A DNA stretch of 34,557 bases from an uncultured Roseburia sp. (GTDB lineage Bacteria; Bacillota; Clostridia; Lachnospirales; Lachnospiraceae), in the NCBI GenBank assembly GCA_947246475.1, contig CAMXSH010000025.1, positions 1 through 34,557 of the forward strand, read 5' to 3'. The notes under the pieces are model-generated. The model worked only from the letters and a program-made list of their open reading frames with translations. It was not told the DNA's origin and searched no databases. Every line of letters starts with the position of its first letter. Within the stretch, counting starts at the first letter, position 1. Positions 759 through 34,557 of this stretch are shown in pieces. Made by a program: the position numbers and the translations under genes.

Positions 759-817
759 TGTGAAGTACACAAAATATGGTATGCTTGGGGCGCAGTCACT
801 GAGATGTCACTTTCATT

Positions 818-850
818 TGTTATAATAAAAATACTTTGAGGAATCTCAAA
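818..850 (+). promoter_or_regulatory. Candidate extended -10 promoter and small dyad before the ABC transporter
   Basis: A perfect TATAAT lies at 821-826, preceded by TG at 818-819 (extended -10). No good -35 is seen 16-18 bases upstream, so an activator may be needed. Just after the expected start point, TTTGAG (835-840) and CTCAAA (845-850) form a perfect 6-bp dyad around GAAT, which could be an operator or a 5' hairpin. The ABC gene begins at 907 behind AGGAGG at 891-896. A transporter promoter separate from the kinase gene fits inducible expression by the adjacent two-component system. Confidence 0.5.
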
Positions 851-906
851 TAATAGAAAGGCTTATATCAAGGTATAGAGAATAACAAACAGGAGGATTT
901 GGCAGC

Positions 907-1587
907 ATGGAAATACTAAGATGTAACGGTATTGAAAAAGTATTTGGAAAAGGCGGCAATCAAGTTACTGCTTTAAATGGAATCAGCCTATCTATTGAAA
1001 AAGGCGAATTTGTCGCAATTATTGGGGCATCTGGCTCTGGAAAGTCAACACTCTTGCATATTCTGGGCAGCGTGGACAAGCCTACATGCGGCACTGTAAC
1101 AATAGATGGAGTTGACCTTGGCGGACTAAATGCTACAGATGCCGCAATTTTCAGAAGGAGAAAGGTTGGATTGGTTTACCAGTTTTACAATCTGATTCCC
1201 ACTCTGACAGCAAAGAAAAACATCCTTATGCCTATGCTGCTTGACAAGAGAAAGCCAGATTTGGATTACTTTACAATGATTGTAAAGACATTGGGAATAG
1301 AGGACAAACTGGAAAGCCTGCCGAGCCAGCTGTCTGGAGGACAGCAGCAACGGGTCGCAATCGCAAGGTCTTTGATTTACCGTCCTGCCATTCTTTTTGC
1401 TGATGAACCGACAGGAAACCTTGACCAAAAAAATTCAAAGGAAATTATTGACCTCTTAAAGCTGTCAAACCGAAATTTAAAACAGACGATACTCCTTATT
1501 ACCCATGATGAAAAAATTGCATTGGAAGCTGGCCGAATTGTGACCATTGAAGACGGACAAATTGTCAGCGACCAAAAGCGGAGGTGA
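907..1587 (+). CDS. ABC transporter ATP-binding protein (MacB/LolD/BceA type)
   Basis: This 226-residue cytoplasmic ATPase powers an FtsX-type permease. It has a Walker A motif GASGSGKST (residues 40-48), a Q-loop in VYQFYNLIPTLTA, the signature LSGGQQQR starting near residue 142, a Walker B motif ILFADEP and D-loop TGNLD, and an H-loop His in LLITHDE. Length and motif spacing are those of the LolD/MacB/BceA subfamily. AGGAGG sits 10 bases before the ATG. The stop codon is embedded in the ribosome site of the permease gene, so the two are translationally linked. With a kinase upstream and a large permease downstream, a role in sensing or resisting cell-envelope-active peptides is likely, but the substrate cannot be read from the sequence. 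Confidence 0.95.
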   Translation: MEILRCNGIEKVFGKGGNQVTALNGISLSIEKGEFVAIIGASGSGKSTLLHILGSVDKPTCGTVTIDGVDLGGLNATDAAIFRRRKVGLVYQFYNLIPTLTAKKNILMPMLLDKRKPDLDYFTMIVKTLGIEDKLESLPSQLSGGQQQRVAIARSLIYRPAILFADEPTGNLDQKNSKEIIDLLKLSNRNLKQTILLITHDEKIALEAGRIVTIEDGQIVSDQKRR

Positions 1588-1592
1588 GCGGC

Positions 1593-3800
1593 ATGTGGAA
1601 GGACTACTCCAGAAGCTATATTAAAAATAACCGAGCCTCCAGCATATCAATTATGACGGCGGCTCTGGTTGCTACAATGTTTTTGTCACTGTTATGCAGC
1701 ATAGGTTACAATTTTTGGGTGTATGATGTTGAACAAATTATGCTAGAGGAGGGCGACTGGCAGGGACGCATTGTTTGTGAAACATTAGGTTCAGGTGATT
1801 TATCGGAAGATAATATATTATCTTTGGTATGTCAATTTGCGAATGTAGAAAAAGCAGTCGCAGGCAAGAAATTATCCAAAAAAGAAGGAACAGTGGTGGA
1901 TGTTTATTTTAAGAATGCTAGAACGATTTATCATGATATGCCATTAATTGCAGCACAGCTCGGACTAAATAAAGATTCCATCCAATACAACTCATTGCTC
2001 TTATCCCGTTATTTTATACACGACCCAGAGGCTGCAACACCACCGATGCTTTTGGCACTGTATGTGATGATACTGATTATTGTGGCAGTGTCGTTAATCT
2101 TAATTATCCGGGGCTCCTTTGAATTATCAATGAATGCCAGAATCCATCAATTTGGTATATTTTCAAGTATTGGGGCGACACCAAGGCAAATCAGAACCTG
2201 TCTGCTACAGGAAGCAATGGTTTTAAGCATACTTCCAATGCTGCTTGGCAGTATAATTGGGATTTTAATAAGCTATGGGGTAATAAAAGCTGTCAATTTT
2301 TTTGCTGCAAATGTATCTGGACGCCACGAAGCTGTTTTTCAGTATCATCCGTCCATATTTGCGGTTACTGTTTTCATTTCGTTCTTAACCGTAATTTTTT
2401 CTGCGTGGATTCCAGCAAGAAGATTGAGCAGAATGACACCGCTTGAAGCAATCAGAAATACAAACGGTTTCATGTTAAAGAAAGCGAAACATTCTCGGAT
2501 TTTATCTTATATGTTTGGCATGAAAGGAGAGCTTGCAGGAAACGCATTAAAAGCCCAAAAGAAATCTCTACGGATATCCACATTATCATTATTGCTGTCT
2601 TTTCTGGGTTTTTCTATTATGATTTGTTTTACTACCCTTGCAGATATCAGTACCAGATATACTTATTTTGAACGGTATCAGGATGCGTGGGATATTATGA
2701 TAACCTTAAAGGACACAGAAATATCAGATTTTGGCTTAACAGATGAATTGCAGGATATTTCCAGGATACAAGATGCTTTGGTATATCAAAAGGCAGAAGC
2801 AATGACGTTACTGCCAGAAGGATTACAGAGCGATGAATTGTCATCCCTTGGCGGGCTTGAACCAATTGCGGGAACGCCGAAGACGAATGGACAGTTTCAA
2901 GTATCTGCGCCGATTGTTGTTTTGGATGACACAAGCTTTTTAAACTTCTGCTCACAGATTGGAATTGCGCCAGGTCTTGATGGGGCAATCGTATTAAATC
3001 AGATTTGGGATAGTTTAAACAGCAATTTCCGCTATAAAGAATATGTTCCTTTTGTGAGGGAGGATAACCGGACAACAACACTATATAAAAATGACAATAT
3101 TTTGGAAATTCCTGTTTTATCTTATACACAGAACCCCCCCGCGCTGAGGGAAGAATATGATAATTATGCCCTTGTACATTTTATCCCGCTTGCTATGTGG
3201 AATAAAACCTTAGGGGAGGGATTTGAAGCTGAATCTGACAGTTATATCCGTATTCTTTCAGACGGAACTGCAAATCTTGCGGATTTAAACGGTCTGGAAC
3301 AGGAAATTGTGCGGCTTGTATCGGAGCAGTATGAAATTGAAAGTGAAAACCGGGTACAGGAAAGATTGTCTAATGACAGTTTAATCCAAGGCATGGTAAT
3401 GATTTTAGGAGCTTTTTGTGTATTGCTTGCCATTATTGGAATTGCGAATGTCTTTTCAAATACGTTAGGATTTCTCCGCCAAAGGAAGCGGGAATTCGCG
3501 GGGTATATGTCCATTGGCTTGACACCACAGGAAATGAGGAAAATGTTCTGTATTGAAGCGTTTGTGATAGCAGGGACCCCCCTTTTGATTACATTGCCGC
3601 TTACTGTACTGTTTGTGCAGTTTGCCATAACAGCAAGCTATTTAGACCCGATGGTATTTTGGTCGGAAGCCCCGATTCTGCCTATTTTGATATTTGCGGC
3701 TGCGATTGTATTGTTTGTCACACTTGCCTATTATATTGGAGGAAAGCGTCTTTTGCAGTGTGATTTGAATGAAACATTGCGGAATGATACATTGATTTAG
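1593..3800 (+). CDS. FtsX-like ABC transporter permease, two-module type
   Basis: A 735-residue membrane protein partnering the ATPase just upstream. One N-terminal membrane segment (about residues 15-40) is followed by a ~110-residue extracytoplasmic stretch and three further segments (about 150-290). A second unit repeats the pattern: one segment near 330, a ~250-residue extracytoplasmic domain, then three C-terminal segments. Each unit carries the FtsX signature region (IGATPRQIRTCLLQEA and IGLTPQEMRKMFCIEA). The ATG at 1593 is chosen because GGAGG at 1580-1584 lies 8 bases before it; a GTG at 1584 is possible but poorly placed. At 735 residues it is longer than BceB (about 650). Transported or sensed peptides are unknown. 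The segment is AT-richer than the genes after 8 kb. Confidence 0.92.
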   Translation: MWKDYSRSYIKNNRASSISIMTAALVATMFLSLLCSIGYNFWVYDVEQIMLEEGDWQGRIVCETLGSGDLSEDNILSLVCQFANVEKAVAGKKLSKKEGTVVDVYFKNARTIYHDMPLIAAQLGLNKDSIQYNSLLLSRYFIHDPEAATPPMLLALYVMILIIVAVSLILIIRGSFELSMNARIHQFGIFSSIGATPRQIRTCLLQEAMVLSILPMLLGSIIGILISYGVIKAVNFFAANVSGRHEAVFQYHPSIFAVTVFISFLTVIFSAWIPARRLSRMTPLEAIRNTNGFMLKKAKHSRILSYMFGMKGELAGNALKAQKKSLRISTLSLLLSFLGFSIMICFTTLADISTRYTYFERYQDAWDIMITLKDTEISDFGLTDELQDISRIQDALVYQKAEAMTLLPEGLQSDELSSLGGLEPIAGTPKTNGQFQVSAPIVVLDDTSFLNFCSQIGIAPGLDGAIVLNQIWDSLNSNFRYKEYVPFVREDNRTTTLYKNDNILEIPVLSYTQNPPALREEYDNYALVHFIPLAMWNKTLGEGFEAESDSYIRILSDGTANLADLNGLEQEIVRLVSEQYEIESENRVQERLSNDSLIQGMVMILGAFCVLLAIIGIANVFSNTLGFLRQRKREFAGYMSIGLTPQEMRKMFCIEAFVIAGTPLLITLPLTVLFVQFAITASYLDPMVFWSEAPILPILIFAAAIVLFVTLAYYIGGKRLLQCDLNETLRNDTLI

Positions 3801-3867
3801 CAGATAAGGATACATGCGTTACCGGAGAAGTTGTGAAACAGGCTGTAATACCCCCAATCATTGTTGT

Positions 3868-4048
3868 CCAGAATATACACCTGGTTTTATAGCACTGGCA
3901 GAAAGCTACGGGGCGAAAGGCATCCGTGTTACAAAAGGAGGATAACACGATATCACGGATGACAATCAGCCTAACCAGCGATGACAGGGCTTTTGAACAG
4001 ATAAGAAAACAATTAAGCAGGAGCGTTGAAGCATTCTGCCAGATATGA
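3868..4048 (+). pseudogene. Fused remnant of acetolactate synthase genes (ilvB 3' end + ilvN 3' half)
   Basis: Two overlapping stubs remain. Frame 3868-3945 reads PEYTPGFIALAES then YGAKGIRVTK and a stop, matching the C-terminal end of acetolactate synthase large subunits. Frame 3935-4048 reads KEDNTISRMTISLTSDD, then AFEQIRKQLSRSVEAF and a stop, matching the ACT/C-terminal part of the regulatory small subunit IlvN. Neither has a start, catalytic region or full length. The ilvB end runs straight into the middle of ilvN, as if a deletion removed most of both genes; this enzyme normally makes branched-chain amino-acid precursors. Recognition is from memory of the conserved motifs, not from a search. 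The remnant suggests the upstream ABC module sits at a scar in an old ilv operon. Confidence 0.65.
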
Positions 4049-4101
4049 TATGATAATGACACCTGCAATTCGTATCATGTTTGGCTGTGGAAGGGAGAAT
4101 T

Positions 4102-4371
4102 ATGAGCAGCCGGCCTGTCGGGCAGTTATTGGAGGAAGATTTTGGACGTATGGAAGTGCGGTTTACTGCCATCATGGAAATGTTCTATTTGATCGTTTTC
4201 TAAAATGAAGAAAATATCGAAGTGATTGATTCAGATAATTTTTGTGACGAATGTGATGGATCTGCACTTTTTGAAATATTAACTTTTGAAACACTTATGA
4301 TACAAATATGTGGTATTCTGTTCTCTCAATGTGTAATAAAACAGGAACTTTTGGAATGGAGGGCAAGATGA
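4102..4371 (+). pseudogene. Small broken reading frame coupled to the response regulator
   Basis: An ATG at 4102 behind GGGAG starts a frame of 89 codons that ends at TGA 4369-4371, overlapping the ATG of the regulator gene (ATGA). One in-frame TAA at 4201-4203 (codon 34) interrupts it. The first part contains LLEEDFGRMEVRFTAIMEMF and the second IEVIDSDNFCDECDGSALFE; both look like real acidic/helical protein. Otherwise the frame is free of stops up to the ATGA junction. No family is recognised. It may be a decayed small gene, or chance, since the region also holds ilv remnants. Confidence 0.3.
4288..4305 (+). promoter_or_regulatory. Shared 18-bp element, copy 1 (before response regulator)
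   Basis: The 18 bases GAAACACTTATGATACAA are repeated with a single change at 7205-7222, before the C39 peptidase gene. Each copy contains TATGAT, a plausible -10 (here 4296-4301), with no strong -35 at normal spacing. This copy ends 62 bases before the regulator ATG. The placement suggests an activator-dependent promoter or operator shared by the two transcription units, with autoregulation by the regulator encoded immediately downstream as the simplest idea. Confidence 0.45.
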
Positions 4372-5021
4372 TAAAAATACTGATTGTAGAAGACGAGGCC
4401 CCCATCTCCAATCTCATATCCATGAGTCTGGAGAAAGCGGGGTATCAATGTGAGTGCGTATTTGATGGCATGGAAGCGGCGGACAGACTTGAAGAAGAGC
4501 ACTATGATCTGGTTCTTCTGGATATCATGCTGCCCAAAGTGGATGGATATGAGCTGATGGAATATATTCATCCAATGGGGATTCCGGTTATTTTCCTGAC
4601 GGCAAAGTCAAATGTCGAGGATACGGTAAAGGGACTTGAGATGGGGGCAGAGGATTATCTTACAAAACCCTTTGAGATCGTAGAACTGCTGGCGAGGGTG
4701 GAGGTAGTGCTCCGCCGATATGATAAAAATGAACAATATTTGCGGGTGGAGGACGTGGAGGTAAATACCCGCTCCCGGACAGTAAAGAAGGATAAGAAAG
4801 TGGTGCGGCTGACCAATAAAGAGTATGAGCTTCTGCTTATGTTTATAAAAAATAAAAATATTGCATTGTTTCGTGATGTGATTTACGAAAGAATATGGGA
4901 AAAGGATTATACCGGGGAAAGCAGGACAGTAGATCTTCATGTGCAGCGCCTGAAAAGGAAGCTGGGCTGGGAGGAAAAGATAAAAACCATTTATAAAATC
5001 GGTTACAGATTGGAGGTATAG
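4368..5021 (+). CDS. OmpR/PhoB-family response regulator
   Basis: A 217-residue two-domain transcription factor. The receiver domain (residues 1-115) has the acidic pocket E8-D9, phospho-acceptor D52 (VLLDIMLP), T78 in FLTAK and K100 in YLTKPFE. The C-terminal winged helix (about 125-217) has the expected LTNKEYELLLMF and TVDLHVQRLKRKLG recognition-helix region, ending GYRLEV. The ATG at 4368 is chosen because GGAGGG at 4358-4363 precedes it and the receiver starts at once (MIKILIVEDE); an upstream ATG at 4308 would add 20 unrelated residues. The cognate kinase follows 4 bases after the stop. Targets are unknown, though the repeated element before this gene and before the peptidase gene is a candidate binding site. 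Confidence 0.95.
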   Translation: MIKILIVEDEAPISNLISMSLEKAGYQCECVFDGMEAADRLEEEHYDLVLLDIMLPKVDGYELMEYIHPMGIPVIFLTAKSNVEDTVKGLEMGAEDYLTKPFEIVELLARVEVVLRRYDKNEQYLRVEDVEVNTRSRTVKKDKKVVRLTNKEYELLLMFIKNKNIALFRDVIYERIWEKDYTGESRTVDLHVQRLKRKLGWEEKIKTIYKIGYRLEV

Positions 5022-5025
5022 ATCC

Positions 5026-6450
5026 TTGAAAATCACATGGAAATTGTTTTTTTCAACCGTGATCACTATGATCGTAACATTTTGTCTGGCAGGGTATTTT
5101 TTAATCTCTGCCCTTTTTCAATCCGGGTATGAGCAGGCAGTGGATGGGGCGATCAATGTGGATCAGCTGTTTTTGCATGAATTCGGAAATTATATGGTGG
5201 GTGTTTCAAAAGAAGAAAATGCAGACCGGCATATCGGCGCTCTTGCGAATGAACTGCTGATGGAAAATATAAAGGTGCACATACAAAAAGAAGACGGCAC
5301 TATTTTGTATTCCAACACAGTTTTTCCAGAAGATGAGATAGAAGCGAAGGCAGAAGCGGAAGGGATGACCAGACGTCTCGTAAATTACGAGGGGAATTAT
5401 TATATTCAGGTAAGAAGCAGGGTTACAGTGGAAGATATGGAGTATCAGGCAGTACTTTTCCATGATGTTACGGACCTTTTTGTAAAAAGAGAAGAGGAGA
5501 TACAGATCTATCATCGTTTTCTTATTCTTTTCCTGCTGCTGGACGGGCTGGTCAGCCTGATCCTGGCAGGGTGTATCGTCCGGCCCATCAAAAAAATTTC
5601 CCGGAGTGCGGGACGTATTGCAGGAGGGGATCTGGAACACCGTATCCGTATCCGGGGAGGGGATGAGATCAGCCGTCTGGGATCGGACTTTAACCGCATG
5701 GCGGACAGCCTGGCAGGGAAAATACAGGAGCTGGAGGACGCGGCAGAGAGACAGGAGGAATTTATCGGAAGCTTTGCCCATGAATTAAAGACTCCCCTTA
5801 CCTCCATTATTGGCTATGCAGATCTGCTGCGCTCCAACCGCCAGACGGAGGAGCAGCAGTTTTTGTGTGCCAATTATATTTTCAAGGAGGGAAAGCGGCT
5901 GGAGAATTTGTCTTTTCGTCTGCTGGACCTGATCGTTCTGGAAAAAAGCGAGCTGCATCTCTGCAAAATAAATGCGGTGGATTTTCTGCAGGAGATTCAG
6001 GGGATGCTGATGCCGGTCATGGAGAACAAGGGGAAAAAGCTGGAGGTTGTGGCAGAGGAGGGAATTCTGTGGGGGGAACCAGAGCTGCTGCACTCGGTGT
6101 TCATTAATCTTGCAGACAATGCGGCAAAGAGTGCTGCAACGGTTATCGTATTGAGTGGTAAAGCGATGGAAGATGAGTATGAGATCGAAGTGTGTGATAA
6201 TGGACAAGGCATTCCACAAGAGGAACTGGTCAGGATCACAGAGGCATTTTATATGGTAGACAAGTCCAGAAGCCGCCGCCAGGGCGGCGCGGGGCTGGGA
6301 CTTGCCATTTGTCAGAAGATTCTTGATCTTCATGAGGCGTCGATGAATTTTGAGAGCCTCCAGGGAGAGGGAACCTGGGTAAAGATCCGGTTTCCCGCGA
6401 ATGTGGATGAAACTACAGAGATCGAAAAAGCAGAGGAGGGAAATGATTGA
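5026..6450 (+). CDS. Membrane sensor histidine kinase
   Basis: This 474-residue kinase pairs with the regulator just upstream. It starts at TTG 5026 with TGGAGG 9 bases before it. Layout: membrane segment about residues 10-30, extracytoplasmic sensor about 31-160, second membrane segment about 163-187, HAMP about 188-240 (IVRPIKKISRSAGRIAGGDL), HisKA with His252 in SFAHELKTPLTSIIGYADLL, then HATPase_c with N-box (FINLADNAAKSA), G1 (DNGQGIP) and G2 (GGAGLGLAIC). All catalytic boxes are intact. The stop overlaps the TTG start of the next gene (TTGA), so regulator, kinase and the following membrane protein form one unit. The stimulus is unknown. Confidence 0.94.
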   Translation: MKITWKLFFSTVITMIVTFCLAGYFLISALFQSGYEQAVDGAINVDQLFLHEFGNYMVGVSKEENADRHIGALANELLMENIKVHIQKEDGTILYSNTVFPEDEIEAKAEAEGMTRRLVNYEGNYYIQVRSRVTVEDMEYQAVLFHDVTDLFVKREEEIQIYHRFLILFLLLDGLVSLILAGCIVRPIKKISRSAGRIAGGDLEHRIRIRGGDEISRLGSDFNRMADSLAGKIQELEDAAERQEEFIGSFAHELKTPLTSIIGYADLLRSNRQTEEQQFLCANYIFKEGKRLENLSFRLLDLIVLEKSELHLCKINAVDFLQEIQGMLMPVMENKGKKLEVVAEEGILWGEPELLHSVFINLADNAAKSAATVIVLSGKAMEDEYEIEVCDNGQGIPQEELVRITEAFYMVDKSRSRRQGGAGLGLAICQKILDLHEASMNFESLQGEGTWVKIRFPANVDETTEIEKAEEGND

Positions 6451-7181
6451 AAAAATATGTTATGTCCATTGCGGTGTTTCTAATGTTCCTGGTAATTACA
6501 GCCGTATGTTTTTATCTGCCTCCCAGGCTTTTTACGCTGAGTGATAACCAGAGGAAAAAAGAGACAGCAGTGGGGAAAGAGGATATCGTGATTCAGGCAA
6601 ATGCCCAGATTCCTTTTAAAAATAAACTGGAACTGATCTATTATCAGCCTTCAAGTCTGGAATTGATCCCGGTGAGCCAGGGGACAGAGCAAAAGAAGGA
6701 TCTGGAAGAGGTGCTGCGGCAGGAAATTTCATCGTTAAAGAAAGTAAAAGCTCTGCCTAAAAAATTCCGCCCGCTTTATGATAAATTGATCAAAGAGCGG
6801 AACTTTGTGATCAATACAGACAACCCAGAGGAATATATGTATATTTGGACCATGGACATGCCAAATAATAGCGGCAGCATGTCACTGAGGGCAGCCATTG
6901 AGGAAGAGAGTGGAAAAGTAGTTTATTTTAGTATGTATAGCAGGGATGCTGCACTACCCATTGATAGAATGAGGAAAGGATATTGTAATTATCTGGGAAT
7001 GAATGACCTCGTACAATCTATATATTTTTCCCCGCAGGATCAATTGGGAGATCATGATTTTATCACGGGGATCTATGCTTATGAATACTTAGGATACATG
7101 GGAAATATGGGTGTGGGTAAAATTTATAAAGAAAACTCTAAGGAAAATGATTCTTCTGGACCAGGACCACAAACATATTAA
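6447..7181 (+). CDS. Membrane-anchored extracytoplasmic protein of unknown function, linked to the two-component system
   Basis: 244 residues from a TTG start (GAGGAGGG 6 bases upstream) that overlaps the kinase stop. One N-terminal hydrophobic segment (about residues 4-26, basic KK before it) serves as signal or anchor; VITAVCF has a Cys but is a poor lipobox. The remaining ~215 residues are hydrophilic and presumably outside the cell, with a Lys-rich helical part near 90-125 and a mixed Tyr-rich part afterwards. No enzyme motif or family is recognised. Translational coupling to the kinase suggests an accessory that modulates sensing, in the manner of YycH/YycI-type helpers. That is inference only. 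Confidence 0.75.
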   Translation: MKKYVMSIAVFLMFLVITAVCFYLPPRLFTLSDNQRKKETAVGKEDIVIQANAQIPFKNKLELIYYQPSSLELIPVSQGTEQKKDLEEVLRQEISSLKKVKALPKKFRPLYDKLIKERNFVINTDNPEEYMYIWTMDMPNNSGSMSLRAAIEEESGKVVYFSMYSRDAALPIDRMRKGYCNYLGMNDLVQSIYFSPQDQLGDHDFITGIYAYEYLGYMGNMGVGKIYKENSKENDSSGPGPQTY

Positions 7182-7204
7182 AATTTTAATAAGTATCTCT
7201 GAAT

Positions 7205-7222
7205 GAAACATTTATGATACAA
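7205..7222 (+). promoter_or_regulatory. Shared 18-bp element, copy 2 (before C39-like peptidase)
   Basis: GAAACATTTATGATACAA matches 17 of 18 bases of the element at 4288-4305. The internal TATGAT (7213-7218) could be a -10; no convincing -35 is present. It ends 46 bases before the peptidase ATG and lies in the only real gap of the cluster, so it probably starts a separate transcript for the peptidase under the same control as the regulator operon. Confidence 0.5.
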
Positions 7223-7268
7223 CGCTGGGTTATCCTGTCTTTATCAACTAAGGACAGGAGTGGTCAGG

Positions 7269-8249
7269 ATGGGTAGAAAGAGATCAAAAGATATGTATGT
7301 AGGAAGACGAAATCATATACGATGGGGACGGATCATGTTTATTCTTCTGGTGCTGGTTGTCATCGGGATTGCAGCCTGCACAAACCGGGCTGAATATGAG
7401 AGCGGAGCTGCCAGGGCACAGGAGGAGGGGGAGGAGGGAATTAAGAAAGTGGAGGAGCACACAAAGGAGACTTTGACAAAAGCCCAAAAACCTGTGCAGC
7501 AGAACAAAGGCAGCGATATTCGCCAGTTCCTCCAGAACGATCCCTATCAGAAAGAACTTCTGCAGCGGTACCAGAAAGATGAGAGAGTATATGAAATCGC
7601 AAAGAACCGGAAAAATTATCCGGATAAATTGATTGAGACACTGATCCAGTATCCTGAGACAATAGATTTTGTACTGGGCTACCCGGAGCGGAAAGTGTGG
7701 AAGAATAAAGAAATCCAAATTACGGAAGAGGTGGTTCAGGGAAAGATTCCGTTATTTATTCAGTGGGACAAACGCTGGGGATATATCCCCTATGGGAATA
7801 GTATTGTGGGCATCAGTGGGTGTGGGCCAGTCTGTCTCTCCATGGTTCTTATGGGACTTACCGGTGATACCAGATACGATCCTGCGTGGATAGCTTCCTA
7901 CAGTGAAATAAATGGTTACTGGGTGGAGGGAGTTGGAACCAGCTGGGAACTTATGGGAAAAGGGGCAGAAGAACTTGGTCTCATCTCAGAGCGTCTCCCA
8001 CTGCAGTGGGAGATGATCCGCAGCAGGCTGAACAGGGGGAATCCTGTCATCTGTAGCATGAAGCCCGGTGATTTCACATATAAAGGCCACTTTATCGTAC
8101 TGACAGGCATCAGCAAGGAAGGAAAGATTACCCTGTGCGATCCGAACAGTCAGGTAAACAGCAGGAAAAAATGGGATTCCCAGCAGGTTCTGGGGCAGAT
8201 GAAAAGTGCGTGGTCATACCAGTGGACCGGGGGGAAAAAGGGATATTAA
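7269..8249 (+). CDS. C39-like (papain-fold) cysteine peptidase, putative lipoprotein
   Basis: 326 residues. A basic N-terminus and hydrophobic stretch (about residues 22-36) end in IAAC with Cys37, a good lipobox, so the protein is probably lipid-anchored outside the membrane. A charged helical linker follows (about 40-150). The peptidase domain of the C39_2 type has Cys185 in GISGCGPVC, His274 in YKGHFIVLTG and Asp291 in LCDPNS, a full catalytic triad. The ATG at 7269 (GGAG 8 bases upstream) is preferred over the GTG at 7260. No ABC transporter domain is fused, so this is not a bacteriocin-processing exporter. Wall-peptide or signal-peptide cleavage is possible. A rho-independent terminator follows. 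Confidence 0.88.
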   Translation: MGRKRSKDMYVGRRNHIRWGRIMFILLVLVVIGIAACTNRAEYESGAARAQEEGEEGIKKVEEHTKETLTKAQKPVQQNKGSDIRQFLQNDPYQKELLQRYQKDERVYEIAKNRKNYPDKLIETLIQYPETIDFVLGYPERKVWKNKEIQITEEVVQGKIPLFIQWDKRWGYIPYGNSIVGISGCGPVCLSMVLMGLTGDTRYDPAWIASYSEINGYWVEGVGTSWELMGKGAEELGLISERLPLQWEMIRSRLNRGNPVICSMKPGDFTYKGHFIVLTGISKEGKITLCDPNSQVNSRKKWDSQQVLGQMKSAWSYQWTGGKKGY

Positions 8250-8272
8250 TATAGATTTAGGCAAAGGCGCCC

Positions 8273-8308
8273 AAAAAGATCCGTCAGAAAGACGGATCTT
8301 TTTGTCTT
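8273..8308 (+). terminator. Rho-independent terminator after the C39 peptidase gene
   Basis: A perfect 13-bp inverted repeat (8273-8285 and 8291-8303, cores AAGATCCGTC and GACGGATCTT) closes a 5-base AGAAA loop and runs into a T-rich tail (TTTTTGTCTTTT). It separates the two-component/peptidase cluster from the recJ unit. Confidence 0.92.
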
Positions 8309-8330
8309 TTCCTGCGGTATATGTTAAAAT
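8302..8330 (+). promoter_or_regulatory. Promoter for the recJ transcription unit
   Basis: TTGTCT (8302-8307) and TAAAAT (8325-8330) are separated by exactly 17 bases, and recJ starts 54 bases later. The -35 lies inside the tail of the preceding terminator, a compact arrangement. It probably drives recJ and the overlapping glycosyltransferase gene, and perhaps the moxR group. Confidence 0.6.
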
Positions 8331-8384
8331 GTATTTAGTATTTTGGAATTGGAACCAAAAGGCGAAAGAAAGGAAAGGGAAGGG

Positions 8385-10184
8385 ATGAAAAAACGTTGGA
8401 TACTTCAGACAAAGCAAGGGGATTTTCGCGGTATGGCAGAGCGCTATGGGATTTCACCAGTGACGGCGCGGTGTATGGTAAACCGGGGGATCTGCGGAGA
8501 CGAAGAGATTGATGCATATCTAAAAGGCGGACTGGAAAAGCTGCATTCCCCCTGGCTGTTTGCCGATATGGACAAGGCAGTACAGATCATATTGGAACAT
8601 AAAGAGGGCTATGGGGCCATTGCCTCAGATTTTGACTGTGATGGGATATTTTCTGCTTTTATATTAAAAAAGGGATTTGAGACCTGTGGCATCCGCAGCC
8701 GGATCTATACCCCTGACCGGGTAGAGGAGGGGTATGGGCTGAACCGGCGCATTGTGGATGAGGCGACAGCAGAGAAGGTCTCCTTTCTTATCACCTGTGA
8801 TAATGGTATTGCGGCGTTGGATGAGGTCAGATATGCCAGAGAACAGGGGCTTCCTGTGATCGTTACTGACCATCACGAGGTACAGGAAGAACTCCCGGAA
8901 GCGGACGCCGTGGTGGATCCGAAACGGGAGGACTGTCCCTATCCCTTCAAGGGATTATGTGGAGCCGGTGTGGCATTTCAGCTGGTCAGCGCTTTGTATG
9001 AAAAGATGGGGATCGTTCCAGAAAAAAGAGAAGAGCTGCTGGAATATGCGGCGATCGCTACGGTGGCGGATGTAATGGAGCTTCAGGGGGAGAACCGGGT
9101 TCTGGTAAAGGATGGTCTCCGGCGGCTGGGGGAGACAAAAAATGTCGGTCTGAGGGCACTTTTGGAGGTGCAGGGACTTTCCGGAAGGGATATCAAAGCA
9201 TATCATGTGGGATTTGTCCTTGGTCCCTGTTTCAATGCGGCGGGGCGTATCGACACGGTGGAGAAAGCTTTCACTCTTTTGGAGGAGACCAGTAACAGAA
9301 AAGCACTGGAGCTGGCGGAGGAATTAAAGGAGATCAACGAGACGAGAAAGCAGATGACCGAGGAGGCTGCCGGAGATGCCTTTGAACTTCTGGAGCAGGG
9401 AGGGAAGACCGAACAGTCAGTCTATATCCTGCATTTGCCGGAGTGCCACGAAAGTCTGGCAGGCATCGTGGCGGGAAGGATCAAGGAAGCCTATCATCAT
9501 CCAGTCATTGTCTTTACCTCCGTGGGAGAGGGGCTTGTAAAGGGTTCTGGGCGTTCCATTGAGAGTTATCATATGTTCGAGGGACTGATGGCATGCAGCG
9601 ACCTCATGATACGGTTTGGCGGTCACCGGATGGCCGCGGGTATGACGCTGCGCCAGGAGGACCTGCCGGAGCTGGAACGTAGACTCAATGAAAATGCCAG
9701 GTTATTGGAAGAGGATTTTCTGCCGGTGTTAGATATTGATGTTCCCCTCCCAGTGGGATATGTTTCGGAGAAGCTGATCGCGGATCTTGAGGTATTGGAA
9801 CCCTTTGGCTGCGGCAACCCAAAACCGGTTTTTGCCGAGCAGCATTTTCGGATCCTGCGTGCGGCAAGGAGGGGAAAACGTGCCAATGTGCTGACGATGA
9901 AGGTGGCGAATGAAGCGGGCACAACCATTGATGCCATCTGCTTTGATGATATAGATGGATTTGAGAAGCTGATCTGTCAGGAGTGGGGAGACGAGGAACT
10001 GGAAAAACTTTATGCCGGAAAGGAAAATGCAGTGGATATTGGGCTGGCATATTATCCGTCGGTAAATGAATATGGTGGATTTCGCACACTGCAGATTGTG
10101 GTGACGGATTTTTGCCGGATCCACCGGAAGACGGACACAGCAGCATTAGGCAGGGAAGAAAAGGAAAAGAGGGCAGGCAGATGA
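8385..10184 (+). CDS. recJ: Single-stranded-DNA-specific exonuclease RecJ
   Basis: 599 residues, near the family norm. RecJ degrades single-stranded DNA 5' to 3' in recombination and base-excision or mismatch repair. The DHH domain shows motif I D82-F-D84-C-D86-G, motif II CDNGIAA, motif III D162-H163-H164 and the later GPCFNAAGRID motif. The DHHA1 part has FGGHRMAAGMTL, and a C-terminal OB-like domain follows (FGCGNPKPVF onward). All metal ligands of the DHH family are visible. The ATG at 8385 is preferred because a purine-rich AGGAAAGGGAAGGG precedes it; the in-frame ATG at 8343 would add a charged tail without homology. The stop overlaps the next start (ATGA). Confidence 0.93.
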   Translation: MKKRWILQTKQGDFRGMAERYGISPVTARCMVNRGICGDEEIDAYLKGGLEKLHSPWLFADMDKAVQIILEHKEGYGAIASDFDCDGIFSAFILKKGFETCGIRSRIYTPDRVEEGYGLNRRIVDEATAEKVSFLITCDNGIAALDEVRYAREQGLPVIVTDHHEVQEELPEADAVVDPKREDCPYPFKGLCGAGVAFQLVSALYEKMGIVPEKREELLEYAAIATVADVMELQGENRVLVKDGLRRLGETKNVGLRALLEVQGLSGRDIKAYHVGFVLGPCFNAAGRIDTVEKAFTLLEETSNRKALELAEELKEINETRKQMTEEAAGDAFELLEQGGKTEQSVYILHLPECHESLAGIVAGRIKEAYHHPVIVFTSVGEGLVKGSGRSIESYHMFEGLMACSDLMIRFGGHRMAAGMTLRQEDLPELERRLNENARLLEEDFLPVLDIDVPLPVGYVSEKLIADLEVLEPFGCGNPKPVFAEQHFRILRAARRGKRANVLTMKVANEAGTTIDAICFDDIDGFEKLICQEWGDEELEKLYAGKENAVDIGLAYYPSVNEYGGFRTLQIVVTDFCRIHRKTDTAALGREEKEKRAGR

Positions 10185-30772: not shown

Positions 30773-30825
30773 CAATTCGCCGGGATGCCGATGCGCGAAT
30801 TGTGTGATTTCGTGTCTGAAATCAC
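30773..30825 (-). promoter_or_regulatory. Two tandem hairpins in the trpS leader
   Basis: Dyad 1 pairs CAATTCGC (30773-30780) with GCGAATTG (30795-30802). Dyad 2 pairs GTGATTTC (30804-30811) with GAAATCAC (30818-30825) around a 6-base loop. Both are perfect 8-bp stems and lie one base apart. Dyad 2 abuts a consensus TTGACA on the plus strand, so it could equally be an operator. Confidence 0.5.
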
Positions 30826-31032: not shown

Positions 31033-34000
31033 ATGAAAAAAATGTACACATTGGGGAAAAGGAAGACGAAGGGATGGGGAAATGAATCCAGGTCAAGAGT
31101 TATGTCATTGTTATTGATCCTGTGTCTGGTTATGAGTTCTGTCATGTCGGCGCCGTCGAGCAGGGCAGACAGCCAGACTACCAATAGGAAGACATGGGAA
31201 GGCGAAGAGTCTGGTTACCGACTTGAGGTGTCTCAGTCTTCCGCCTGGGAAGGCGGTTATGTGGCGGAGGTCACAGTACGGAACACGGGAGAGGATGAAC
31301 TTAGGAACTGGTCTGTAGCGGCGGTGCTGCGAGAGGGAGATATCGAGAACTCGTGGAATGCCACACATAAAAAGATTGGAAAGCAGGAAGTGGTCTTTGA
31401 ATCAGAACAGCACAACATGGTGATTCCCTCCGGGGAAAAAGCGGTCTTCGGATTCAAAGTGACAGGGGGAAGTTTTGGTGATCTTATCTCTCTTAAGCTG
31501 GTTCCCGGAAAGATCCTAAGTACCAGCCGGGCAGACATAACCTTTAAAGAGACCGGGAGCTGGGCCGGCCACAAGATCATAGAGGGCACCATAACAAATC
31601 AGAGTGGAAAGACCATCCGGGACTGGTCACTCTCCTTTGAGATGGAGGGCAGAATAGTAAATATATGGAACGCAGAGGTGACAGAGGAATGCGGCAGTAC
31701 GTTTCATGTGAAAAACAGTGGGTACAATGGAGTTCTCGAAGCGGGGGAACGGGCTGTATTCGGCTTTGAGGCTACCTATGACACAGAATCCTTCAGCGGC
31801 ATCCACGATGTCAGAATATTTGCCGGCGGACAGGGAACAGAAGGAGGGGATGTAAAACCAGAAGACACGCCGGAGCCGACAACGACAGCTAATGCCACCG
31901 CGGTTCCTGCCACGGAAGCGCCCACAGCGACAGCCACACCGAAGCCCGCAGTGACGCCGTCCGTGACGGAGAAGCCGGAAGAAGAAATTTCTGAAGATGA
32001 TATCCAGTTTATCCAGGTGGAGAACCGGGACTGGAATATGGATATGATCCACGCCAAGGATCCGGTGGTGCAGGCGGCAAAAGGAAAAGCCGGCAGAAAG
32101 ATCCGGGTTACCATGTTAGACTCCGGTATTAACTACAGTGATGAGGTTGAGGTTGTACAGCGGAGGAATTTTGTCGAGGGGCAGGATGAGATGAGCTGTC
32201 TCTTTGAAGATGGCAGCGGTCACGGAACAGCTATCGCCGAAATACTGGCCTCCGATCCCAATGCGGCCTTTGACGAAGACAGCGGCAGCGGGGATGAGGA
32301 GGATGATTTTGGAACCTATACATATTACAGTGAGCCCGACGACGAGGAAGACGATGATGACGAAGAGACCATTTATGCGGGGAAGGCAGGGAAGGTATCC
32401 ATGGGAGACCTGCTGGACAGCGGGTATGAATGGTCCGAGGGTGTGAACCCCAATATCGAATTGTTTTCGGGTAAAGTATTGGATGAGAAAAATGAAACCA
32501 CTGTGGACCGGGTAGTGGAAGGCATCGAGTGGGCGATCGAAAATGAGACGGATATACTCAGCCTGAGCCTGGGCATGGACAAGGATTCCGAGAAGCTGCA
32601 CAGGGCGGTCAAAAAAGCAGCAGAGAGCGGAATACTGATCATCGCTGCAGTGGGAGAGGACGAGAAGGTGGACTATCCGGCGGCATACCCGGAGGTTATG
32701 GCTGTGGGCATGGTGAACAGCATGGGAGAATCCGCCGGCGTCAGGTCAGAAGTATCCGCCCCCGGAGATTTCATCGTGTCCCGCGGTGTATTTGACAGCA
32801 TGCAGGTCTTCTCCGGCAGCAGCATGGCAGTTCCCCATGTGGCGGGGCTGGCGAGTATCCTCTGGCAGCAGGACACCACAAAGGATGCGGCGTTTATCCG
32901 CGGTCTGATCGACGTGTCTGCCAATCAGCGCCTGGAGGAAGAAGGCGGTTATGGTCTCATCGACTGCCGCTACGCGCTGGAGTCCTATGAGGAATTTGAG
33001 AAACAGGTTCGGAATGAACCCGGTCTGTTAGACCGGATCTCCAGGAACAGGAATCCAGAGAAGGTCAGGGAAGAGGTGGCGGAAACTATCGATAACGAGA
33101 CCGAGGTGGAGACCGAGGAAGAGATGGAAAAGCTCCATGGGAGCTGGGAATCGGATCTTCACAAGGAGTTTGTCAGCGTTAAGTATAAGGAAAAATGGAC
33201 GAATGGGAAAAAGTACGTGAAGGTATTACAAAGCGGGTTGTCTTTTGTGGATAATGAAAGACTTAACCCAGATTGTTACGGCATGCGGGACCATCCCTGG
33301 TTCCACGGTTTTTATGGCGGGGTAGAGAAGACCGACGGCTCCGGCGGAAAGACGCCGAGATCCAACTATATGACCAGTTTCCGTACGCTGCTGGAGCTGG
33401 CGGACGGTATGCGGCGCCAGGGGGAGATCAAAGATATCCGCACAGAAAGTTCATATCCAGCAGTGGAAAGTACCTTGAAGGGTATTAAAAAAGCTTTCCG
33501 GGACAGGGATAAGGTGGGAAGCCAGAGATGGGAGGATATTGATGGGTATTGTGGGAAAAAAGGCAGATCGGTTCCTAAGGACTGCCGGAGCCTGCTGATC
33601 TATGGCATGGCGCTGCACACGATGGGTGATACCTTCTCCCACAGCAGTTTTGGTCTGGAAAAGGTTGTCACTCAGAAGAAGTCGCAGAGTAAAGATAAGG
33701 CGATTGCCGGGAAGGTGAGGTGGAAGAGATACTCCCATGGCGAAAATAAAAAGGGAGAGTGGTACGCCGACAATACGAAAAGCAGAAAACTCCGGTACCA
33801 GTCTGCTAAGGCGGCTACCAAAGCGGCGATAAAAAAGATAGAGGTAGATCCGGAAAAAGGGCTGGCGGGTTATGAGAATTACAGCACGGCGGTAGAGGCT
33901 TTTTGTCCCAAAAAGAAATTTGAAAAGCTGAAAGAGATGTTTGTCACGGTGAAAGACAAAGAGGGCAAAAAAGTAAAAATTCCAAAGATAGAATATCTCG

Positions 34001-34557
34001 AGGAGGGGTATGCCTTAAAAGATTTTGCCAATAGCTATGAAAAGGAAGTGAAGATCACAGGCAGGACATCCAAAGATATGGAGAAATATCTAACATATGT
34101 GGATCAGGAACAGTTAAAGGATCGGTTAAAAAAGTGCGGACTGTTCAAGATCAAGCAGGATCGGAAAATGGGAATGGATAAGAATTCTACGCTCAAGGTG
34201 AAAGTGGGGGGCAAAACCATCCTGGATCTGCTGCCCAAAGGAGACAGTATATTCCTTTTACTGCCGGAAGATCTGGAGTGTCAGGTGGAAAATACCAGAC
34301 CTCAGGGATCCAACACCATTTGTACCATCGAGGAAGGTGCCTTATACGATGAGATCGGTAGAAAGATGCGATATCACGTGCTGGAGGATACCGGAGAACT
34401 GGACGAAGAGGAGGAAATGAAGCTGTGTGATCTGAGGGAATATGAGATGTCTACGGATTGTCTGGTCAAGGGTAAGGTGGTCTATTTTGATTATACGGTG
34501 GGATCGGCTTCTAAAGAGAATATGCCCGGACTGGGGGGAGTGAATATCCGCTTCCAG
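31033..34557 (+). CDS. Secreted modular subtilase-like protein with CBM2-like domains (3' end outside window)
   Basis: The frame is open for 1175 codons to the window edge, with AGGAGG 5 bases before ATG 31033. Signal peptide: about residues 1-45 (core MSLLLILCLVMSSVMSA). Two tandem CBM2-like beta domains, about 65-165 and 170-270, each have a conserved NWS/DWS, a WNA and an FGF strand. A Thr/Pro/Ala linker spans about 280-330. The subtilase domain has Asp363 (TMLDSGIN), His397 (GSGHGTA) and Ser597 (FSGSSMAVPHVAG). Between His and Ser lies a ~60-residue insertion rich in Asp/Glu (about 410-450). At the oxyanion position, where AAGN is expected, the sequence is AAVGED (Glu542). After the subtilase, a long Lys/Glu-rich region contains His862-x3-Asp866-x3-His870 (LHTMGDTFSHSS), reminiscent of zinc phospholipase C-like helical domains. 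No close whole-length relative is recognised. Activity as a protease is uncertain. Confidence 0.85.
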   Translation, partial: MKKMYTLGKRKTKGWGNESRSRVMSLLLILCLVMSSVMSAPSSRADSQTTNRKTWEGEESGYRLEVSQSSAWEGGYVAEVTVRNTGEDELRNWSVAAVLREGDIENSWNATHKKIGKQEVVFESEQHNMVIPSGEKAVFGFKVTGGSFGDLISLKLVPGKILSTSRADITFKETGSWAGHKIIEGTITNQSGKTIRDWSLSFEMEGRIVNIWNAEVTEECGSTFHVKNSGYNGVLEAGERAVFGFEATYDTESFSGIHDVRIFAGGQGTEGGDVKPEDTPEPTTTANATAVPATEAPTATATPKPAVTPSVTEKPEEEISEDDIQFIQVENRDWNMDMIHAKDPVVQAAKGKAGRKIRVTMLDSGINYSDEVEVVQRRNFVEGQDEMSCLFEDGSGHGTAIAEILASDPNAAFDEDSGSGDEEDDFGTYTYYSEPDDEEDDDDEETIYAGKAGKVSMGDLLDSGYEWSEGVNPNIELFSGKVLDEKNETTVDRVVEGIEWAIENETDILSLSLGMDKDSEKLHRAVKKAAESGILIIAAVGEDEKVDYPAAYPEVMAVGMVNSMGESAGVRSEVSAPGDFIVSRGVFDSMQVFSGSSMAVPHVAGLASILWQQDTTKDAAFIRGLIDVSANQRLEEEGGYGLIDCRYALESYEEFEKQVRNEPGLLDRISRNRNPEKVREEVAETIDNETEVETEEEMEKLHGSWESDLHKEFVSVKYKEKWTNGKKYVKVLQSGLSFVDNERLNPDCYGMRDHPWFHGFYGGVEKTDGSGGKTPRSNYMTSFRTLLELADGMRRQGEIKDIRTESSYPAVESTLKGIKKAFRDRDKVGSQRWEDIDGYCGKKGRSVPKDCRSLLIYGMALHTMGDTFSHSSFGLEKVVTQKKSQSKDKAIAGKVRWKRYSHGENKKGEWYADNTKSRKLRYQSAKAATKAAIKKIEVDPEKGLAGYENYSTAVEAFCPKKKFEKLKEMFVTVKDKEGKKVKIPKIEYLEEGYALKDFANSYEKEVKITGRTSKDMEKYLTYVDQEQLKDRLKKCGLFKIKQDRKMGMDKNSTLKVKVGGKTILDLLPKGDSIFLLLPEDLECQVENTRPQGSNTICTIEEGALYDEIGRKMRYHVLEDTGELDEEEEMKLCDLREYEMSTDCLVKGKVVYFDYTVGSASKENMPGLGGVNIRFQ

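Follow-up and report, generated by a model that had tools for sequence, protein, structure and literature searches.

A stretch of 34,557 nucleotides from an uncultured Roseburia sp. (GenBank assembly GCA_947246475.1, contig CAMXSH010000025.1, forward strand), hereafter the window, ends within a gene that joins two CBM2 domains, a subtilase and a zinc phospholipase C/P1-nuclease-like domain in one secreted chain. Somewhat beyond even confidence, we read the product as a secreted two-enzyme precursor in which the subtilase activates the hydrolase, with leucine-rich repeat (LRR) proteins as partners and an agr-type system in control. The fusion protein is most likely a zymogen whose own subtilase frees the phospholipase-like enzyme, because a tryptophan that is N-terminal in Listeria PC-PLC and in the secreted homologue L155 is internal in the fusion. 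The features on which this argument turns are as follows.

31033..34557, + strand: gene for a secreted CBM2-CBM2-subtilase-zinc phospholipase-like protein, its 3' end cut by the contig end
32092..32955, + strand: subtilase (S8), residues 354-641, with Asp363, His397 and Ser597 (PF00082 match; triad)
32656..32658, + strand: Glu542 at the usual oxyanion-hole Asn position (51-row alignment)
32956..33144, + strand: linker between subtilase and hydrolase, ending L-H-G-S, with the predicted cut between 33144 and 33145
33145..33147, + strand: Trp705, predicted mature N-terminal metal ligand, invariant and at the signal-peptide junction in L155
33145..34092, + strand: zinc phospholipase C/P1-nuclease-like domain (alignment; PF00882 in relatives), C-terminal limit uncertain

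Trp705 opens a W-x4-H motif and lies inside the chain, 108 residues beyond the catalytic serine. In Listeria PC-PLC, the main chain of Trp1 coordinates a metal, substitutions of Trp1 lowered activity in all variants tested but Phe, and one extra residue before Trp1 inactivates the enzyme, the last point being cited there from another paper; the enzyme is made as a proenzyme, which the metalloprotease Mpl activates in trans (passages of PMC10576769).

Stand-alone homologues are present in genome G699, which belongs to another family of the class and is the only one among the 11 genomes of that family to hold such forms. The signal peptide of L155 (MNTKFKK...MNAFA) directly precedes W28, which is exactly where the alignment of profile A7 (127.8 bits) begins. 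To judge from this junction, a signal peptidase cut can create the Trp end in L155; as W705 is internal, the fusions would need another cut. L156 (44.5 bits) likewise has a Trp directly after its signal peptide (...SITSFA). Next to the stand-alone secreted homologue, L155 also encodes (6374-7882) a 502-residue protein with a weak N-terminal helix-turn-helix match, a membrane segment and a phospholipase-like domain; NAFVW follows its membrane segment, but the profile alignment begins past that region. The original prediction, which a model drew from the letters of the window, proposed that the protein processes itself or a partner, and this gains indirect support from the place of Trp705 just past the subtilase and from the L155 junction.

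The residues ahead of the Trp were compared in 51 sequences, a set that omits five rows with fewer than 150 residues before the Trp, L095 and L097 (no W-x4-H at the expected distance) and L103 (another build, no such Trp). Four places ahead of the Trp stands V in 36, L in 9, I in 4, A in 1 and R in 1, and a hydrophobic residue at this distance from the cut suits subtilisins. The second residue before it is G (46) or A (5), and the residue just before it is variable (S 25, F 6, Y 6, R 5, others).

The likely metal ligands of the C-terminal domain, assigned from known members, are W705, H710, D740, H758, H862, D866, H870, H902 and D913. The original prediction had seen the HxxxDxxxH motif and overlooked W705, H710, D740, H758, H902 and D913. 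Across 40 aligned members (one duplicate, L044, and three chance motif matches omitted), W705, H710, D740, H758, Y779, H862, D866, H870 and R921 are invariant, the invariance of H862/D866/H870 being partly a product of selection by that motif, whereas the Trp was not used to pick these rows; D913 is kept in 38. A two-domain alignment of 43 members, nine of them accepted only with a W-x4-H present somewhere, retains D363/H397/S597, W705, H710, D740, H758, H862, D866 and H870 in all 43 rows and R921 and D913 in at least 90%, so that seven of the nine ligands are kept throughout the fusion copies. This set omits truncated, duplicate and non-subtilase open reading frames (ORFs) and includes L095; the window and L053 are cut at the 3' end, and the ORFs of L063, L065 and L072 begin only at the catalytic Asp. 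The six positions originally named for the triad and for HxxxDxxxH are thus correct and invariant, and the proposed check on homologues found HxxxDxxxH in 43 of 43, though the motif helped to pick them.

The PF00882 cut-off of 26.8 bits is passed by the siblings L072 (30.8) and L091 (30.3) and by the stand-alone homologue L155 (38.7). Single scans of the 40 domains at E<=0.1 gave PF00882 for 28, DUF6765 for 8 and Het-C for 3. With these matches and the conserved ligands, the phospholipase-like character first proposed for the region is supported, the window domain itself lying under the threshold, and we assign the domain, by its sequence, to the superfamily of zinc phospholipases C and S1-P1 nucleases. 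The W-x4-H spacing and the Asp as last ligand agree with nuclease P1, so the domain may act either as a phospholipase or as a nuclease.

Peptidase_S8 matches residues 354-641 with 92.5 bits (Pfam cut-off 21.8), and the Asp/His/Ser triad of an S8 member is invariant in the 43 rows. In the 51-row alignment, the catalytic D and H are present in 48 rows and the S in 50; the exceptions are two truncated rows and an RHS protein, and the triad is complete in every other row that covers it. An acidic low-complexity insert (about residues 408-450, window 32254-32382) lies between the His and Ser motifs.

Several observations weigh against self-activation. A clear signal-peptide/Trp junction is known from one protein, L155; in L156, which has no Pfam match, the profile alignment begins later and sets another residue at the Trp position; and no signal peptide followed by Trp was found among 29 PF00882 ORFs of the order inspected, so the Trp is not universal in PF00882. 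Ser, the most frequent residue just before the predicted cut, is an unusual choice for subtilisins. The oxyanion-hole Asn, which is common in subtilases and stands outside the Pfam threshold, is replaced by Glu542 in the window protein; the 51 rows read N 33, E 9, D 6, K 1, Y 1 and gap 1, and 17 of the 49 covered subtilase rows, the window included, lack the Asn (the RHS row, with N, set aside). The window domain scores 13.9 bits with PF00882, H902 is kept in 36 of the 40 members, and profile-profile comparison with other PF00882 proteins gave weak, local similarity. Profile searches of PDB sequences returned no match at E<=1 with 40 rows and one weak match, to a designed protein (E 1.6), with 10 rows. 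Structure prediction of the domain from the window and five close orthologues (L039-L043) reached a mean predicted local distance difference test (pLDDT) score of 34.5 and no usable model, so the placement of the Trp at the metal site rests on the alignment.

These points bear on two other explanations. The Trp might be freed by another protease, the fused subtilase acting separately on host, diet or competitor proteins. The activation of Listeria PC-PLC in trans by Mpl (passages of PMC10576769) and the window subtilase without its oxyanion Asn speak for such an arrangement. A subtilase without a processing part would nevertheless be less expected to keep its triad complete and to precede linker and Trp in constant order, as it does in 43 of 43 members; the collection of members via the hydrolase domain and the existence of stand-alone and RHS-borne forms soften this argument. 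We consider a separate protease unlikely; a fused subtilase of low strength could still cut its own chain despite the loss of the oxyanion Asn. It is more doubtful still, indeed improbable, that the Trp stays internal, with the C-terminal domain serving for binding or structure or being active without a free N-terminus. The 29 inspected PF00882 ORFs and the unusable model agree with that idea, but the invariance of the Trp and most ligands and the L155 junction exactly at the Trp argue against it.

Cleavage by the fused subtilase remains the reading that we favor, and a sequence of events can be proposed for it. The CBM2 pair may tether the precursor to a glycan, and the subtilase would cut Ser704/Trp705, either in cis or from one copy to another. 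The Trp thus placed at the N-terminus would then fold back as a ligand of the metal cluster and activate the hydrolase, which would attack a phosphodiester substrate, phospholipid most likely. The gene is probably followed by others for secreted LRR proteins, which would restrain or aim the enzyme, and it is probably under agr-type quorum control. Of all this, the sequences directly show the domain composition, the conserved active sites, the ligand set, the recurrence of the fusion, the LRR neighbours of relatives and the common promoter repeat; the cut with its site and agent, the activation, the substrate, the part of the LRR proteins and the regulation are inferred.

The domain is also found on a different carrier. 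The RHS protein L105 bears it behind the RHS core, with the junction D-R-S-G-H|W. In a studied Rhs toxin, the cut falls at Leu1342/Ala1343 and the catalytic residue is Asp1338 (passages of PMC8636562); the Asp-to-Trp distance of L105 equals the Asp-to-cut distance of that toxin. As a control, a Trp occupies the RHS cleavage position in 1 of 15 genuine RHS ends (18 pattern hits over 30 loci, 3 judged spurious). This junction, in one protein, lends modest support to exposure of an N-terminal Trp. No further RHS carrier of the domain came up in 299 genomes, a negative without evidential weight. The longer record L157, which includes L105, encodes at 769-4251 a 1160-residue RHS-repeat protein with a phospholipase-like C-terminal part and a Trp at the RHS cleavage position.

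The window is the whole of contig C25 in an assembly of 2.66 Mb and 98 contigs. The ORF (31033-34557, 1175 residues) starts with ATG, is preceded by an AGGAGG ending 5 nucleotides upstream and is open at the 3' end, where about 160 residues are absent by comparison with the 1331-residue orthologue L039; the nearest relatives measure 1318-1384 residues, with mechanically chosen starts. The remaining features of the gene are these.

31033..31167, + strand: signal-peptide-like N-terminus, residues 1-45 (hydrophobic run; end placed by eye)
31210..31512, + strand: CBM2-like domain 1 (CBM_2 match in two stretches; approximate limits, by eye)
31534..31785, + strand: CBM2 domain 2, residues 168-251 (best PF00553 stretch)
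31816..31998, + strand: Thr/Pro-rich linker (sequence; approximate)
33148..33192, + strand: hypervariable cassette of 15 residues after Trp705 (ortholog pair comparison)

The signal peptide, CBM2 pair and Thr/Pro linker of the original prediction are all present, and Pfam CBM_2 matches in two stretches with 93.3 bits (cut-off 24), which places the pair in CBM2. Attachment to a polymer, also suggested there, is plausible but optional, CBM_2 being found in 20 of the 43 members. The further statement that no family joins these parts stands insofar as no Pfam or NCBIfam model spans the whole, but the subtilase/phospholipase fusion is recurrent and no one-off. On the final 536 residues, Pfam gave a Zn_dep_PLPC match only, under threshold; the NCBIfam scan of the window protein gave sub-threshold models only, mainly subtilases, with nothing convincing for the C-terminal part.

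Of 145 related genomes searched with the protein, 20 gave a match; they fall in 2 of 100 genera. With the C-terminal profile A1, matches came up in 23 of the 397 genomes sampled from the family (20 of 334 genera), several weak ones being proteins of other build; the broader profile A7 gave matches in 7 of 341 genomes of the class and in 2 of 249 of the phylum. The Roseburia genome itself holds three members, on contigs C25, C1 (850 residues) and C28. In a Pfam scan of the 43 members, S8 was found in 43, PF00882 (E<=0.01) in 19 and CarboxypepD_reg in 7, beside the CBM_2 matches given above; as the members were collected via the hydrolase domain, other effector domains on the subtilase carrier could not appear. 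Three scans of viral contigs yielded no relative, and plasmids yielded none for two queries. Carriage by phage was considered and set aside, the sole candidate being one unverified faecal scaffold with 34% identity over 61% of the query. That scaffold (L144, MT839366.1), labelled 'Bacteriophage sp.' and derived from human faeces, encodes a piece of the fusion family and is perhaps a bacterial fragment.

The cassette behind Trp705 stands out among close orthologues. It diverges by 53% against 3.7% for the rest in L041/L042 and by 53% against 3.8% in L060/L067, and in 10 of 32 close-orthologue pairs no other 15-residue stretch is equally diverged. It is common to L060/L066 (0%) and L039/L041 (7%) and unexceptional in L059/L069 and L046/L048. 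The cassette therefore behaves like two alleles in two groups. Among the 20-residue blocks of the enzymatic part, the one that contains the Trp varies most in both groups; in the first group, the N-terminal block 41-60 varies more than the Trp block. This pattern suggests that the predicted new N-terminus is subject to recombination and selection.

The genes that follow the fusion are commonly LRR genes. Among 54 downstream neighbours (56 minus two duplicates), 41 match LRR_5 at E<=0.01, 26 LRR_8 and 13 LRR_4, the sets overlapping; a neighbour is here the longest same-strand ORF starting near the stop, many of the 54 are mutually orthologous, and in 22 of the 56 this mechanical ORF begins before the upstream stop. 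In the Roseburia genome, which has 31 LRR_5 segments, counted as 17 frames, the C1 fusion is adjoined by two LRR_5 genes, the C28 neighbour has a weak LRR match, and C25 ends; no LRR_5 was found beside the five hydrolase-free subtilase genes of this genome (C34, C52, C23, C21, C3). Contig C66 opens inside an LRR gene and shows synteny with the region that lies past the orthologues, and tandem LRR repeats may be the cause of the assembly break at the contig end. Downstream of its fusion gene, L040 has a tandem array of four genes for secreted LRR proteins (5963-9754), and L039, L041 and L042 have two each; identities of the LRR proteins among the L039-L042 loci are 76-91%.

LRR proteins are listed among immunity proteins, with Imm-LRR as one of the named classes (passages of PMC3482391). 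That the LRR partner is an adhesin or a target receptor instead of an inhibitor or immunity protein is quite possible, at odds slightly below even: at two loci, the second LRR gene matches the HupY/LrrG LRR adhesin model, with 65.5 and 70.3 bits, far below the cut-off of 1250 for that model. Set against this, arrays of up to four diverging copies look like immunity arrays, for which the named class provides a precedent.

Upstream of the fusion gene lie three further features.

30792..30822, + strand: left arm of an inverted repeat, 31 nucleotides (copy beside the agr locus on contig C1)
30924..30954, - strand: right arm of the inverted repeat (copy beside the agr locus on contig C1)
30962..30990, + strand: promoter-like TTGAAA-17-TATGTT with TG extension (consensus match only; similar in orthologues)

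The arms are 94% complementary and 101 nucleotides apart, and the repeat also occurs at five orthologous loci (87-94%). Its 17-nucleotide core has six genome sites at <=2 mismatches against 0 for the backward control: the window pair, a further pair at C1:96399/96450 and two sites that stand singly, each with two mismatches. The only other paired occurrence in the genome, on C1, is beside agrB (87.6 bits against a cut-off of 23); genes for a LytTR response regulator and a GHKL kinase and a 42-residue AgrD-like ORF lie in its vicinity. The agr-type cluster (L205 2021-4982) lies about 8 kb from the C1 fusion paralogue, with the shared repeat at 4886-4916 and 4951-4981. Regulator and kinase genes also occur near members in other genomes: they adjoin the fusion gene at three loci (L050, L057 and L161), two of which (L050, L057) have agrB as well, and stand near a fragmented member in L159. 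These are 4 of 55 loci searched, several of the 55 being incomplete or unrelated. Agr-type control of the fusion gene is therefore a fair inference. An invertible promoter was considered and rejected: a regulator's operator is preferred because all 6 of the 6 orthologous loci have the spacer in one orientation and a copy of the repeat adjoins the agr locus. A second inverted repeat (36 nucleotides) is found upstream of the fusion gene in two of six loci scanned (L041 5462-5626, L042 5610-5774).

What the enzyme serves can be argued in two directions. Tentatively, and with confidence that falls well short of even, we see a quorum-regulated antagonism system of gut Clostridia, in which effector zymogen and activator share one chain, a subtilase-made Trp assembles the active site, secreted LRR proteins from diversifying tandem genes act as immunity or targeting partners and the cassette records an arms race. 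Nutrient scavenging, in which a CBM-targeted protease and a phosphodiesterase free amino acids and phosphate from plant material or mucus and no antagonistic or host-directed effector is involved, seems rather unlikely. CBM_2 in 20 of 43 members and a gut habitat, itself a guess from genus names, would suit it, but the LRR tandem arrays, the hypervariable cassette and the RHS carrier of the same domain fit better with conflict. A defence role was set aside, PADLOC having given only generic subtilase and IetS resemblance.

The individual parts and built-in processing proteases are known. In the open-access literature, the matches listed hold no account of the subtilase-phospholipase fusion or its LRR neighbours, subscription papers being mostly outside this scope. 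Listeria-type phospholipases C need a free N-terminal Trp, and every producer has to generate it at the proper site and moment; signal peptidase cleavage and a distinct protease are the known routes. In the present family, which occurs in many gut-type Clostridia, the Trp-exposing protease is apparently part of the same chain as the enzyme. If true, this would be a new activation logic for secreted phosphodiesterases and likely a new class of LRR-partnered effectors under agr-type control.

The closest known systems share parts of this design. PF00882 proteins and Listeria PC-PLC have a comparable ligand set and a conserved Trp, and PC-PLC is a proenzyme that is active once the sequence before the Trp is removed (passages of PMC10576769); the fusion differs from them by the protease on the same chain, the W-x4-H spacing, the D-x3-H in HxxxDxxxH, and the CBM2 and LRR context. 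S1/P1 nucleases (PF02265) belong to the same superfamily as the fusion domain, and PF02265 had no match in 196 genomes of the class, the Roseburia genome included. Het-C (Tox-HET-C), found in toxin systems, has the HxxxDxxxH motif like the fusion domain, and Zhang et al. 2012, who gave this motif for Het-C, predicted a common fold and active site for Het-C, PLC and S1-P1 nuclease (passages of PMC3482391). The window domain itself has no Het-C (PF07217) match at E 0.1, and the three matching members among the 40 reach E 0.019 at best. Polymorphic toxins likewise place a peptidase ahead of a C-terminal effector, with subtilisin among their processing proteases (passages of PMC3482391), and the phospholipase-like domain is itself also found behind an RHS core. 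In contrast to these toxins, the fusion carries an internal Trp that would have to become N-terminal, and its targeting would rely on CBM2.

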